Assembly: GCA_021324115.1 (NCBI GenBank)
Contig: JAJPJS010000025.1
Span: 326,343 to 390,342 of the forward strand
Source of the DNA: Nitrososphaerota archaeon
GTDB taxonomy: Archaea; Thermoproteota; Nitrososphaeria; Conexivisphaerales; DTJL01
DNA: 64,000 nucleotides
Direction of reading: 5' to 3'
How positions within the stretch are numbered: the first letter of the stretch is position 1; each line of letters starts with the position of its first letter. Shown here one piece after another: positions 881-8,142 of this stretch. The position numbers and the translations under genes are program-made. The notes under the pieces were generated by a model. The model did not search any database. It was not told the origin of the DNA and saw nothing but the letters and a program-made list of their open reading frames with translations.

Positions 881-1670
881 GGAGAGCAGAGAACATTATT
901 ACATTCTTATCCTTTTTGGATGGAGGGTATTTACACCTGCGTAGGTAACCCTGAGAGAGGGATTTTTGATAAACTTCGAAAGCGACGCTTTCAGATAGTG
1001 GACAAATATAAAAGAAGGGGGCTTGCTTAATGGAAACAGGAATGTGTCAAACCTTACTTATGTGAATGATGACAAGCTCATGTTCAAGTTGAACTTAAAT
1101 GTGAAAAGATAGTCTGATTCAGTCCAAATCGACTAAAACACTGCTTAAGTTGCGGAAGATGTTTGAGAAACAACGGAAGCCGGGCAAACATCCAGTTGTC
1201 TTATTTTAGGCATGCCTCCGTCTGCTACAAGAGCAAGAAATGCTGTGAAGAGGGCAGGAACTATTATTTTTCACGCACTGAAAGCTTCGGAATCCTTCTT
1301 TGACTTGAGCTCTGTCCACATTGTGATCATCGAATTCAATGCAAGGAGCACGCCTACAGATGTGACAAATTGTTTAACGCTCGTTCCCTTCCCGCGCCTC
1401 CGCCTATTTATTTTTTATAGGATTACTTTAAGGAATGTTAGCTGCTTTGGCGATGATTGAGGTATCTATTCTTGGCCCGACACTGCTGGTCTACGTCTAT
1501 GTGAGGGGCGCGAGGAATCGCGAAATCAACCCAAAAAGCCTGGATAAGCGAGAAGAAGGAAGAGCTAAACCTCGAGAAACCGTACAGATCAGTAATGTCT
1601 TGACGATAATGGTCTATAGTTTCTGATATTATGTATTTTAGGCAGTAACAAGTCAAGTATTGCTCGGGGT

Positions 1671-1859
1671 ATGAAGGTACTCAAGATACTCTCTATCCTG
1701 CAGATAATCTGCAGTGCTGTAGTCATGCTACTGATTCTCGCAGTCGCGGTCTCGTTCAAGGTGCCGCCTGCCCTGTACCTGTTATTCAGTATCGGCGTCT
1801 TTATATTCTCGATAGCAGGCTACATGGTAAGGGACAGCGAGAAAAAGAATCAGACATAA
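1671..1859 (+). CDS. Small two-TM membrane protein
   Basis: 62-aa ORF with two hydrophobic segments. Confidence 0.5.
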   Translation: MKVLKILSILQIICSAVVMLLILAVAVSFKVPPALYLLFSIGVFIFSIAGYMVRDSEKKNQT

Positions 1860-2201
1860 GGTCCCAGAAGGACATCAATTGAGGTCTCGTTTCTTATACC
1901 TTCATTATCTGTAACGGCAACACAGTAAGTACTCCGCGCCTCCTGCCGGCATGTTGGATCGCTTCCACGCTGGATATGCATATCAACCTACATCAAACTT
2001 CCTGCATTAACGTTCTCTTGGCGGACATGCACGATTGTGTGGGTTTACCTGCCAGTGCCACTCGACTGCGACGATATACAAACGTACTCCATAATGAATA
2101 AATCTAATATGCCTGTCTGATTTTTTCTTCGGGAATAATTTGAGGACGACAACAGGGACAATTACTTTTGGACCCATAGCGAAACCTAGAATCACGCTCC
2201 A

Positions 2202-2408
2202 TCAGTCTTTCTCGGTTATGATTCTCGGCTCCCTGAGTTCATCTACCCGTACATAGTGGTAAATGTTCCTGGCCTTTGTCCTCCTGTCCCTAGGATGCTT
2301 GAACTCCCAGTACCAGTATTCATTCTCCGGATTCTTGCCGGTTCTCTTTACTTTTCTGGGCTTCCAGGCCAGCTTCCCGCACTTCTCACATACATATCTG
2401 GCAGGCAT
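2202..2408 (-). CDS. Small basic protein with one CxxC zinc knuckle
   Basis: 68-aa ORF, MPARYVCEKCGKLAWKPRKVKRTGKN... Confidence 0.5.
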   Translation of the reverse strand: MPARYVCEKCGKLAWKPRKVKRTGKNPENEYWYWEFKHPRDRRTKARNIYHYVRVDELREPRIITEKD

Positions 2409-2410
2409 TC

Positions 2411-2594
2411 GGTGGCAACACTGTCACTTTGTGCCTATTTCTGTTTTTTGCCACCACTTTGGTCTGTCCGCCGAGCGTCATCGTGTTTGGCGGTTTTTTG
2501 CGGTTATCGCCAAAACCGGTGGCAACACCTAAGCCATCCCCATGCTTTGACAAAGATAATATCGGACGTCGTTGCCGGCTGTGGTGGCAACACT
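2411..2594. repeat. Three direct copies of GGTGGCAACAC in intergenic DNA, with an intervening hairpin
   Basis: GGTGGCAACAC near 2412, 2518 and 2583; hairpin CGGTTTT(2491-2497)/AAAACCG(2512-2518). Confidence 0.5.
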
Positions 2595-2812: not shown

Positions 2813-3775
2813 TCACAACCTTCTTAGCTTTTCCTGAACGGAATCGATACCGACTGATTCGACAACTTCGGATATCACAGCATTCTGAGAGCAACCCGCA
2901 ACCGCCATCGCCCTTGTGGTTGCGTATGCACCGCAGTTTCCCCTTGAATCGAGGACGATGGCACCTGCACTGCCCCGGCCGAACAATCTCTTCATCTCCT
3001 GTAACTCTCGAATGAGTACCATGTAAGGATCAACCCTGCCATCAAGGTCCCAGACAACTCTTGATGAAAGAGAATACCTCATTATATCTTCTCCCTCTCC
3101 GGTGGCCGAGACCGCTCCTTTGCCATTCATCGCATAGAAACCCGCTCCACATACCGGGCTATCGCCGATCCTTCCTGGCAGTTTGAATGCAGTTCCCCCG
3201 GTGCTTGTTGCGGCCGCAAGATTTCCATTTTCATCGATCGCGACAGCTCCGATTGTGTCCCTGACTGGTGGAAGCCGGTACTTAACAGGTAAAGTACGGA
3301 TCCATTTCTCCTTTGAGATGTATTGTTTCATTCTTCTATTGATGATATCTTTCCTAGCTTTGTCAACTTTCAGCTTGGAATACAAGCCGTACCCCTTTGC
3401 CAGGATTTCAGCTCCCCTTCCCGATATGAGCACATGGCGGGTATCGGTCATGATTTTGCGGGCCAGCTCTACTGGATTCGGCACGTTTCTTACCGAAGCA
3501 ACAGCACCAGCGCCTAATGTACGACCATCCATAAGTCCTGCATCAAGCTCGATATCGTACTCGATGTTAGGATATGCACCACTACCTGCATTGAATTTAC
3601 CCGAATCCTCCATCAAGGTAATCGCGGCAACCACTGCGTCCACCGAGGAGCCTTTCTTCATAATTCTTAATCCTTCGATCACTGCAGCTTTCATTTCCCC
3701 TCTAGCCTGTTCAACAGTTTTCGGTTCGACGTTCCACTCTCCTGCACCACCATGCACGAGTATCTTGGGTTTCAT
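2813..3775 (-). CDS. Isoaspartyl peptidase / L-asparaginase (Ntn-hydrolase, plant-type)
   Basis: MKPKILVHGGAGEW start, nucleophile context RDTIGAVAIDENGNLAAATSTGG; 320 aa. Confidence 0.93.
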   Translation of the reverse strand: MKPKILVHGGAGEWNVEPKTVEQARGEMKAAVIEGLRIMKKGSSVDAVVAAITLMEDSGKFNAGSGAYPNIEYDIELDAGLMDGRTLGAGAVASVRNVPNPVELARKIMTDTRHVLISGRGAEILAKGYGLYSKLKVDKARKDIINRRMKQYISKEKWIRTLPVKYRLPPVRDTIGAVAIDENGNLAAATSTGGTAFKLPGRIGDSPVCGAGFYAMNGKGAVSATGEGEDIMRYSLSSRVVWDLDGRVDPYMVLIRELQEMKRLFGRGSAGAIVLDSRGNCGAYATTRAMAVAGCSQNAVISEVVESVGIDSVQEKLRRL

Positions 3776-4968
3776 TTCAGTTCGTCTTCTCCTCTCTTTC
3801 TACCAATCCGTTGATTCTTCTCATTTCTGGGAATCCTGACCTTATAGAGACAGTTGTGTACGAGTGCGTTTGAAACAAGGTAACATCCGTCACTCGTTTC
3901 AAGATTATAAACAGGACCGGAAAAATGAAATCTCCTTACATGGGTCACAGGGACCCAGAATCCACTTCTGCCTTTCAGTGTGCCCTCTTTCGAAAAATCA
4001 ATTGAATAAAGATCGGGGTCCGTATTTAGCGATGTGTCCGCAGGTGCTTCGTCTTCATCAGGTTTAACCCGATGCAGTGCCGCAAACCTGCCCAGCCCTG
4101 CATACATCAATTGAATCTGAGTTGCCAGTACTGCGGATGAAACAATACGACGATGAGAATTCGACCGACTAACGGGACAATTCGAAAGAAGGCCCTCAAG
4201 AAATGCCCTTCTTACAGATATGTCCGGATGAAGTAAAATGTCTTGAGGTATGAAGAGCTCCTGGTTCGTATCAACCGCGCCTTCTTTGCTCAGGCTGTGT
4301 GACATCAGCAGAAGGCTAGCGGAAAACTCGGATATATTGAGCGAGGACCTATCGTCCTTTGTCACAAGCCGGCGAGTCTGCGAATCAGGTGAAAAAGAAG
4401 ATGATATACCAGAATAATTAGCCCATTGCGTCGTCATCTGCTGTGCAAGTGCCCTACCCTCAGATTTTGCGTCTTCAATGGATATACCTGACCTCAAATC
4501 TTCATTTGACCAATTGGTCGTCTTCTCCGATATTACGTCCGCTTCTGTTCCCTTGTGAGGCAGATGATGTGTATGATTGTGGAGAGAAGGCACCAGTAGA
4601 TAGTCGACCCTTTCGGCGCCGGATCCCGCGGGCATCAGTTTATACGCCGGTAACCAGTGAGCCTTTTGCAGCCTTCCGTCTGTACGGTGTGAGACGAACA
4701 AAGGATGTTCAGGCGTCACCCTGAAATCAAGGAGCCCAAGTGCTCCTATTACCAGTATGTCACCGTCGTATCGGTGCCTATTTACCCTTAGAACTCGCCC
4801 GGCTCCAGTTCTATCATATATTATATCATACGTCTTCATCATTGATATCGGTACCCGGCTTCCACCCACAACTGTGTCTCCTGGAAAGCACTTTGGACAG
4901 GTAGCATAATATTCGCTTTTACCCCGATAATTCCAGTTATATCCACAGTGGGCACAGCTCAGTTGCAC
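3772..4968 (-). CDS. Mini zinc-ribbon protein (52-aa extein) interrupted by an intein
   Basis: N-extein MQLSCAHCGYNWNYRGKSEYYATCPK, C-extein CLYKVRIPRNEKNQRIGRKRGEDELK; overlaps the asparaginase start by 4 nt. Confidence 0.88.
   Translation of the reverse strand: MQLSCAHCGYNWNYRGKSEYYATCPKCFPGDTVVGGSRVPISMMKTYDIIYDRTGAGRVLRVNRHRYDGDILVIGALGLLDFRVTPEHPLFVSHRTDGRLQKAHWLPAYKLMPAGSGAERVDYLLVPSLHNHTHHLPHKGTEADVISEKTTNWSNEDLRSGISIEDAKSEGRALAQQMTTQWANYSGISSSFSPDSQTRRLVTKDDRSSLNISEFSASLLLMSHSLSKEGAVDTNQELFIPQDILLHPDISVRRAFLEGLLSNCPVSRSNSHRRIVSSAVLATQIQLMYAGLGRFAALHRVKPDEDEAPADTSLNTDPDLYSIDFSKEGTLKGRSGFWVPVTHVRRFHFSGPVYNLETSDGCYLVSNALVHNCLYKVRIPRNEKNQRIGRKRGEDELK
3853..4890 (-). mobile_element. Intein (346 aa) with a degenerate LAGLIDADG-type endonuclease region
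   Basis: Block A CFPGDTVVGG, block B VTPEHPLFVS, block F/G VYNLETSDGCYLVSNALVHN|C; decayed DOD-like segment RRAFLEGLLSNCPVSRSNSHRRIVSSAVLATQIQLMYAGLGRFAAL. Confidence 0.9.
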
Positions 4969-5255
4969 AGGTCTGATGCACTACCTACCTACTTACCTAC
5001 CAGCTATTTATCGATTTAGTCACAGGGACATCATGGTGTATACCCTGTCAAAACCCATGATAACATAGCTCTGCGTACTTGCAACATTTGTTTTCCAACC
5101 CTTTTGCTATTCCGTTTGCAGGGAGGGTTCTCCGGTCGATCCAGTCTTATGATTGCTGCACAAAAGTAGCGAGGGTAAGGATTGTCCTTCTAGGGCCGAG
5201 GTCCTCAGATTAGTTTATCTGATTCCTTGGAATAATATCGGCTAGGGCGGTTCCA

Positions 5256-5801
5256 GTGCCCGATAGCTGGCTCGAAGAGATTGACGAATTCAGGTCGGCG
5301 AGAGAAGAAATCGTCCGGTCGTTAGTCTCTTCGCTTCGTTCAAAGGCGCAAGGAAAACTTTACAGGGGTTTGATCTATTATCCTCCTGACCCCCGTTTCA
5401 AGGTTAAGGGAAGCTTCGATCATTATGCCACTCCAATCAGGACTGAACTGGAAACCAGTAAGGGAGGGTCGGAACAGTGGTTGCTCATAGGAAGGATTAA
5501 TTTTAGTTTGAATGGCAAAGATATCACGCTCAACGCCTACAGATCAGAGAGTACAACAGGTAAGAGCGTCTTCGTACCATTCAAAGACTCGACTTCAGGG
5601 GTCAAAACCAGCGAAACCGGGAGGTATCTAAAGATAGAAACTGGCGAAGGCGGAAGGGTCATACTGGATTTCAACTATTCATGCAACCCGGACTGTGTTT
5701 ACAATCCAACACTATCCTCGCCGATTCCACCGCCCGAGAACTCCATTCCCGTGGCTATTGAAGCAGGTGAAATTGGTCCCGACTTTGCACCAGATGAGTA
5801 G
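5256..5801 (+). CDS. DUF1684-type protein
   Basis: C-terminal hallmark RYLKIETGEGGRVILDFNYSCNPDCVYNPTLSSPIPPPENSIPVAIEAGE; GTG start. Confidence 0.8.
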   Translation: MPDSWLEEIDEFRSAREEIVRSLVSSLRSKAQGKLYRGLIYYPPDPRFKVKGSFDHYATPIRTELETSKGGSEQWLLIGRINFSLNGKDITLNAYRSESTTGKSVFVPFKDSTSGVKTSETGRYLKIETGEGGRVILDFNYSCNPDCVYNPTLSSPIPPPENSIPVAIEAGEIGPDFAPDE

Positions 5802-7614: not shown

Positions 7615-8142
7615 TCAGTCAGGATATTCGAGCTCCTGGAGCGCCTTCGCGCTGAGTAAGCTTTCACCCACTATCGCCCTCTGACTAATTATTCCCAATG
7701 GTTTCCCATTCTCCGTCACAAGGAGGCGTCTTATCCCTTTTTCGCCCATCAGTTTCATGGCATCTTTGACAGGTGTATCCGAAGATACGGTGAGCACGGG
7801 TGAAGACATTATCTTTCTCAAGGTTATAGTGGAGGGTACCAGATTTTCCGCAGCGACCTTGTAGAGTATGTCCCTCTCGGTAACAATCCCCACAGGCTTC
7901 CCCCGGTTCATAACGATAGTGCTCCCCAGGTTCAGCTCTCTCATCTTCTCCGCTGCGGTTAGGACCGTCTCTCCGGCTTCCAGTTGCAAGAAGTCTCTGC
8001 GCGTGAATTCCTTGACAACGGGTACTTTCTTCTCTTGGTGCCTCAGCCAAATGCCCATCGAATAATGGCAGGACGGGCACTCGTCTGGAGGATCCTTGCT
8101 CTGGACTACTCGTCCACATTTGTAACATTCCCACTTAGGCAA
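7615..8142 (-). CDS. Rubredoxin/zinc-ribbon plus tandem CBS domain protein
   Basis: N-terminal CYKCGRVVQSKDPPDECPSC followed by two CBS repeats (GIVTERDIL, GIISQRAIV). Confidence 0.88.
   Translation of the reverse strand: MPKWECYKCGRVVQSKDPPDECPSCHYSMGIWLRHQEKKVPVVKEFTRRDFLQLEAGETVLTAAEKMRELNLGSTIVMNRGKPVGIVTERDILYKVAAENLVPSTITLRKIMSSPVLTVSSDTPVKDAMKLMGEKGIRRLLVTENGKPLGIISQRAIVGESLLSAKALQELEYPD

Follow-up and report, generated by a model that had tools for sequence, protein, structure and literature searches.

The interrupted zinc-ribbon gene

The window (the whole 64,000-nucleotide stretch of DNA analysed) carries on its minus strand an open reading frame that the first-pass annotation had located and read correctly (Table 1), and that divides a 52-aa host ribbon as MQLSCAHC...ATCPK/CLYKVRI by a predicted intein of 346 aa (C27 to N372, with Cys373 at +1). 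The zinc-ribbon gene ends in a TGA that shares bases with the ATG of the following gene (ATGA, 4 bp), which is presumably isoaspartyl peptidase/L-asparaginase-like, as named by reading its sequence alone; in both G006 and G008, an asparaginase-like gene likewise adjoins the uninterrupted zinc-ribbon gene. Two further small CxxC ORFs are present in the window, one of which starts with CxxC...CxxC, followed by CBS-like sequence.

Table 1. Coordinates, sequences and junctions of the features discussed (a slash marks an intein junction)
Feature	Coordinates	Strand	Sequence or junction	Remarks
Precursor ORF	4968-3772	minus		GTG start, 398 codons (398 aa), no internal stop
N-extein	4891..4968	minus	MQLSCAHCGYNWNYRGKSEYYATCPK	26 codons from GTG; first knuckle CAHC plus Cys24 of the second; aligns with intein-free orthologues
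Predicted class-1 intein	3853..4890	minus	CFPGDTVV...NALVHN	Cys1 to Asn346, 346 codons; degenerate LAGLIDADG region inside
Block A	4867..4890	minus	CFPGDTVV	Predicted Cys1 nucleophile, at the position of the fourth Zn ligand
Block B	4696..4719	minus	VTPEHPLF	TxxH motif; T59, P60, H62 and P63 invariant in the relatives' alignment A3
Decayed endonuclease	4177..4254	minus	FIPQDILLHPDISVRRAFLEGLLSNC	Compared with FLxGYLxGDG of mobile relatives
Block F	3871..3912	minus	VYNLETSDGCYLVS	From sequence and alignment with relatives
Block G	3853..3870	minus	NALVHN	Penultimate His, terminal Asn; alignment with relatives
C-extein	3772..3852	minus	CLYKVRIPRNEKNQRIGRKRGEDELK	26 codons plus stop; Cys+1 (predicted true fourth Zn ligand), then LYKVRI...
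Adjacent gene, presumably iaaA-like	2813..3775	minus		Overlaps zinc-ribbon stop by 4 bp
Small CxxC ORF	2202-2408	minus
Small CxxC ORF	7615-8142	minus
Intein-free orthologue, G008			MLLHCKHCHYDWEYKGKSSYYATCPKCLYKVRV	Contiguous at junction
Intein-free orthologue, G006			MRLKCTHCAYSWDYGGASKYYATCPKCLYKVNV	Contiguous at junction
Intein-free orthologue, G007			MRLHCKHCHYDWDYKGKSQYYATCPKCLYKVSI	Contiguous at junction
Methyltransferase-like ORF, L075 (Bathyarchaeota bin)	1429-2439			Same zinc ribbon as N-terminal part
NuoB			ETAC/CSVEVGA; MGA/CSITGG	Pfam PF01058, 1e-27
2-oxoacid:ferredoxin oxidoreductase beta (KorB)			WCPG/CGDF
NuoI-like ferredoxin			CGF/CVDACP; R/CVFCGFC	Pfam Fer4
ABCE1			CGI/CVKKCP	Pfam Fer4
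IscU			GNPV/CGDLM	Pfam PF01592, 2e-50
Cas4-like nuclease			E/CRYC	Pfam match just below cut-off
SufB			IEG/CSAP; VR/CDALL
Radical-SAM proteins, two kinds			CNY/CQN; CDF/CWRP	Pfam radical SAM
Double zinc ribbon (L132, G333:C44)			KCPS/CGAP	Pfam support; Cys at -3
C2H2 finger (L052/L146, G353:C58)			ECPH/CGRW	Pfam match just below cut-off; Cys at -3
Cys-rich protein			RCFV/CGKEACPGC
Host of unassigned kind, G006			CDY/CDKHF
Terminase-like ATPase, viral contig L176 (IMGVR_UViG_3300033141_005199)	2878-5358		RCLV/CGRKWGKTT	Exception; Cys at -3

When the two exteins are joined, they form a CxxC-15-CxxC pattern, in which C5, C8, C24 and C27 are invariant across nine extein homologues. In three genomes belonging to the same archaeal family, orthologues that lack the intein read ATCPKCLYKV unbroken across the junction, and each extein half alone matches the extein family (E 9.5e-17 and 7.7e-13). 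The uninterrupted homologues for which the first-pass annotation had proposed a search thus exist and are continuous across CPK/CLYK, and its view that the intein splits the last zinc knuckle, with splicing restoring CxxC...CxxC, agrees with these contiguous sequences and with the invariance of the four Cys residues. The intein-free orthologues are 36-40 aa in length, the C-extein of the window having an additional tail.

A member of the extein family is present in 36 of the 401 genomes of the class, the copy in the window being the only interrupted one among the copies read out. A genome scan with a five-row extein alignment (A1; the broader alignment A2 was too diverse) gave named records of these orthologues and further relatives, among them the MAGs Nitrososphaeria archaeon DRTY1_bin.15 and archaeon YF1.bin89 as well as a Bathyarchaeota bin. 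Since no named zinc-ribbon family scores above cut-off for the host in Pfam, NCBIfam or PDB, where only sub-threshold matches were obtained, the designation as a zinc ribbon with predicted zinc binding follows the CxxC motif pattern; naming the extein by PDB profile search was abandoned, as it returned only weak matches, to HypA and RNA polymerase ribbons. The methyltransferase-like fusion in the Bathyarchaeota bin, in which the enzyme is a putative DNA methyltransferase, gives a hint that the zinc ribbon may act together with nucleic-acid enzymes.

Identification of the insert as an intein

Direct searches with the precursor were indecisive: Pfam gave no intein match at E<1, phmmer against PDB found nothing, and the best intein-related match in NCBIfam, to an intein-containing model, had an E-value of 0.013. 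The identity of the insert was therefore fixed through its relatives and a fold model. The window intein aligns end to end (Cys1 to Asn-Cys+1) with an intein of a different host in the sister genome G006, with 27% identity over 384 columns and 1e-31 for the pair. Matches of this relative are to Pfam Intein_splicing (6e-5, below the curated cut-off), to the PI-PkoII structure (2.8e-4) and, weakly, to LAGLIDADG_3. A profile built from six members of the family matches PI-PkoII (8e-13), a VMA intein (5e-6) and KlbA (3e-4). The match to Hint or intein profiles anticipated in the first-pass annotation is consequently weak when sought directly and is obtained through the relatives and the fold model.

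An AlphaFold model was computed from a 12-row alignment in which the window protein is joined by eleven relatives found on viral contigs. Confidence is high in the splicing region, where block means reach about 80-94 across most of residues 31-120 and 341-370, and the best matches of the model in the PDB are inteins, among them TliVMA, PhoVMA and PI-SceI. The central part of the model is unreliable and disordered, for which reason whole-model TM-scores are low (0.35); as modelled, the splicing region adopts the Hint fold. Cys1, TPEH, HN and Cys+1 are invariant across the intein family (alignment A3), and blocks F/G of the window intein end with HN before Cys+1 (VYNLETSDGCYLVSNALVHN, then C). 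Residue F:4, which is usually Asp in inteins, is Asn in the window intein and throughout its group. The hallmarks of a class-1 intein are accordingly present, namely Cys1 in block A, the block B TxxH, the HN/Cys end, a Hint fold model and continuous intein-free homologues, although the window intein itself scores below the curated family threshold. Base composition gives no sign of foreign origin (G+C 0.48 in the intein, 0.46 in the flanks).

Mobile relatives carry the endonuclease motifs WLLGxYVAEG ... FLxGYLxGDG. In the window intein, the first LAGLIDADG motif (the counterpart of WLLGxYVAEG) is lost and the second reads LEGLLSNC, so that it lacks the pair of LAGLIDADG motifs with their acidic residues, and homing endonuclease activity has most likely been lost.

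The locus is best explained, with a probability of roughly 0.93, by a class-1 Cys1/Cys+1 intein that is predicted to splice and that interrupts the second knuckle of a small zinc ribbon, from an archaeon of Nitrososphaeria or a near relative, in-frame between CPK and C. The weak direct family match and the Asn in place of Asp at F:4 would also suit a permanent fusion, or a Hedgehog- or BIL-like Hint domain that cleaves instead of splicing. This is, however, very improbable given the full set of blocks A, B, F and G with HN/C, the need for the C-extein to complete a zinc ribbon whose orthologues are continuous, and the closest structural matches, which are inteins with an endonuclease.

Insertion sites of related inteins

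Relatives of the window intein were gathered by homology within the class and the phylum (Thermoproteota), which does not make an unbiased sample, and their junctions were read (Table 1). Among 24 distinct Cys+1 sites, 16 were assigned by us to metal or cluster chemistry, several of them presumed to be metal ligands from motif and family knowledge. Among the exceptions are family B DNA polymerase, a dehydrogenase E1 alpha-like protein, topoisomerase, SAM synthase and MCM, to which are added endonuclease IV, where the junction adjoins a ligand without coinciding with it, and a terminase-like ATPase on a viral contig. By contrast, the inteins that the general Pfam model retrieves from the class are mostly placed before Thr or Ser, in P-loop proteins and replication proteins. 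Since related inteins sit at metal-holding Cys residues in many other archaeal proteins, the arrangement in the window is recurrent rather than a one-off, and this recurrent use of metal-ligand Cys by the intein group is a more interesting result than the single case. The very small host, described in the first-pass annotation as unusual for an intein, also stands out among the hosts of this survey, which is not a complete list of intein host sizes.

Some hosts are interrupted more than once. An 893-aa NuoB ORF (L046, G214:C6) contains two inteins in one gene, at both of the listed NuoB junctions and thus at predicted cluster-ligand Cys residues, and SufB in L045 (G390:C4) also carries two, at EGC-SAP and VR/CDALL, both probable cluster-assembly Cys. 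The WCPG/CGDFG intein of the 2-oxoacid:ferredoxin oxidoreductase beta subunit occurs in many genomes of one family, f7, and some of f9, f10 and f11 (loci L061, L064, L066-L069, L071, L072, L148-L150, L156 and L158). The genome of the window (G000) and G007 are intein-rich: the general intein model matches 13 times in the former and 17 times in the latter, and several genes contain more than one intein (e.g., L107 and L113). The metal-site inteins are not claimed to form one clade, the tree being poorly resolved and the window intein lying on a long branch. Nor is it claimed that ectopic homing among CPxC sites used a common DNA target: some of these sites share TGCGG after the junction, where the window reads TGTCTC.

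A Cys at position -3 is found at 11 of the 24 distinct Cys+1 sites, compared with 8.2% of Cys residues in the ORFs of the window and 6.5% in the fetched loci (binomial tail 1e-6 against all Cys), an enrichment much of which must arise because CxxC is the usual ligand spacing. Many sites of relatives have no Cys(-3), including those in NuoB, SufB, IscU, PolB and topoisomerase. Inteins precede the later rather than the first Cys of a CxxC in about 9 versus 2 cases (one-sided sign test, 0.03), or 10 versus 2 (0.02) when the uncertain CDY/C host is counted; as the sites belong to related inteins and are not independent, this preference is only suggestive.

Proposed mechanism and competing explanations

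Whereas the exact junctions, splicing blocks, Hint fold model, contiguous orthologues and decayed endonuclease are read from the sequence, the splicing steps proposed here are those of established class-1 chemistry. Cys1 would attack the Lys26-Cys27 bond (an acyl shift), the N-extein would then be passed to Cys+1, and cyclisation of Asn346 would release the 52-aa CxxC...CxxC ribbon, which could then bind zinc. Before splicing, the fourth ligand is parted from the other three by the intein, whose Cys1 occupies its place; with Cys as the first residue of the intein and also as the +1 residue of the extein, the precursor necessarily has Cys(-3)-Pro-Lys-Cys1 instead of the mature knuckle. The junction C24-P-K/C27, together with CPKCLYK in the orthologues, bears out the earlier observation that intein Cys27 stands where the fourth zinc-binding Cys belongs. 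Presenting such ligand mimicry as a special feature is not warranted, since it follows automatically from the insertion of a Cys1 intein before Cys+1, and relatives occupy many metal-ligand Cys residues. Intein mobility accounts for the insertion site itself: homing needs a conserved target with Cys, Ser or Thr at +1, and the most conserved such residue in small metalloproteins is a metal-ligand Cys. A tendency of inteins to insert at conserved ligand and active sites is known (PMC7765530).

The persistence of the intein is probably that of a neutral, dying mobile element, which would have homed to a conserved Cys codon and lost its endonuclease and would now remain because exact deletion is rare, with constitutive and fast splicing and a Cys arrangement of no effect. 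The decay of the endonuclease, the confinement of the intein to a single genome among the 36 with the extein family, and the many relatives' sites lacking Cys(-3) are all consistent with such a history. It would, however, reduce the recurrent Cys(-3) and the later-Cys bias to coincidence or motif statistics, and the frame has stayed open with all splicing blocks kept despite the loss of the endonuclease, as would be expected anyway if the host protein is needed.

Alternatively, Cys5, Cys8, Cys24 (-3) and intein Cys1 might hold zinc, or Cys(-3) and Cys1 might form a disulfide, either of which could slow the first step, so that splicing would wait on metal or redox conditions and this control would retain the intein despite its dead endonuclease. 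Such a gate, an idea raised in the first-pass annotation, is plausible, and a reasonable hypothesis, in light of its precedents, which also make a metal/redox switch in inteins an idea with forerunners rather than a new principle: Cys(-3)/Cys1 has the geometry of the disulfide control designed into the Ssp DnaE intein and natural in the Pyrococcus abyssi MoaA intein (Callahan et al. 2011, as reviewed in PMC3922620 and PMC10663303), and the mycobacterial DnaB intein is blocked by zinc held on a catalytic Cys (PMC7360933). The frequency of Cys(-3) and the later-Cys preference among relatives point the same way, and with the endonuclease dead, homing no longer maintains the window intein. Nevertheless, control as the reason for retention is judged unlikely. 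Conserved Cys residues in CxxC-rich proteins mostly have a neighbour three positions away, which would produce the enrichment without regulation; Pro two residues past the fourth Cys in the precursor should weaken a standard zinc knuckle; and a single interrupted copy gives no measure of selection. A broader proposal, which we regard as doubtful, is that an archaeal Cys1/Cys+1 intein group has specialised on metal-ligand Cys, preferably the later Cys of CxxC, and creates a decoy Cys(-3)...Cys1 metal or redox site in its precursors. If so, metal supply or oxygen would control when zinc-ribbon, Fe-S and radical-SAM proteins are spliced, the zinc ribbon of the window being the smallest example.

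A mature zinc site that cannot form before splicing in a very small host offers a clean, small system for the question of metal or redox control. As inteins of this kind recur at such positions in Thermoproteota, whether the site serves zinc, Fe-S or radical-SAM chemistry, the single curiosity becomes part of a pattern testable across hosts.

Comparison with known systems

A literature search, which covered few subscription papers and is therefore weak evidence of novelty, found no paper on a zinc-ribbon intein or on this archaeal pattern. Among known systems, two, the MoaA intein of P. abyssi and the Ssp DnaE trap, have in common with the window intein the pairing of Cys1 and a host Cys at -3, as in C24-P-K/C27; in these known systems the two Cys can form a disulfide that prevents step 1. 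The MoaA host is a radical-SAM enzyme, whereas the host here is a zinc-ribbon miniprotein, and the likeness concerns Cys positions, not a comparison of intein sequences. For mycobacterial DnaB intein 1, inhibition of splicing by zinc on the catalytic Cys is proven; this intein differs in belonging to class 3 and in that its zinc is bound inside the intein (Cys118) rather than by Cys residues of a host zinc finger. The SufB inteins of M. tuberculosis and archaea have Cys+1 and, like the window intein, precede a functional Cys, in their case one of an iron-sulfur protein, but the archaeal SufB sites read in this survey lack Cys at -3, and SufB is a large scaffold protein of the Suf system. Archaeal inteins in NuoB, KorB, ABCE1, IscU, the double zinc ribbon and the C2H2 finger are relatives of the window intein at the same type of site, the closest of them sharing the CxPxDTLILGDN... 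start and the HN/C end. Unlike the window intein, most of these relatives keep intact endonuclease motifs, and they reside in larger hosts with other cofactors.
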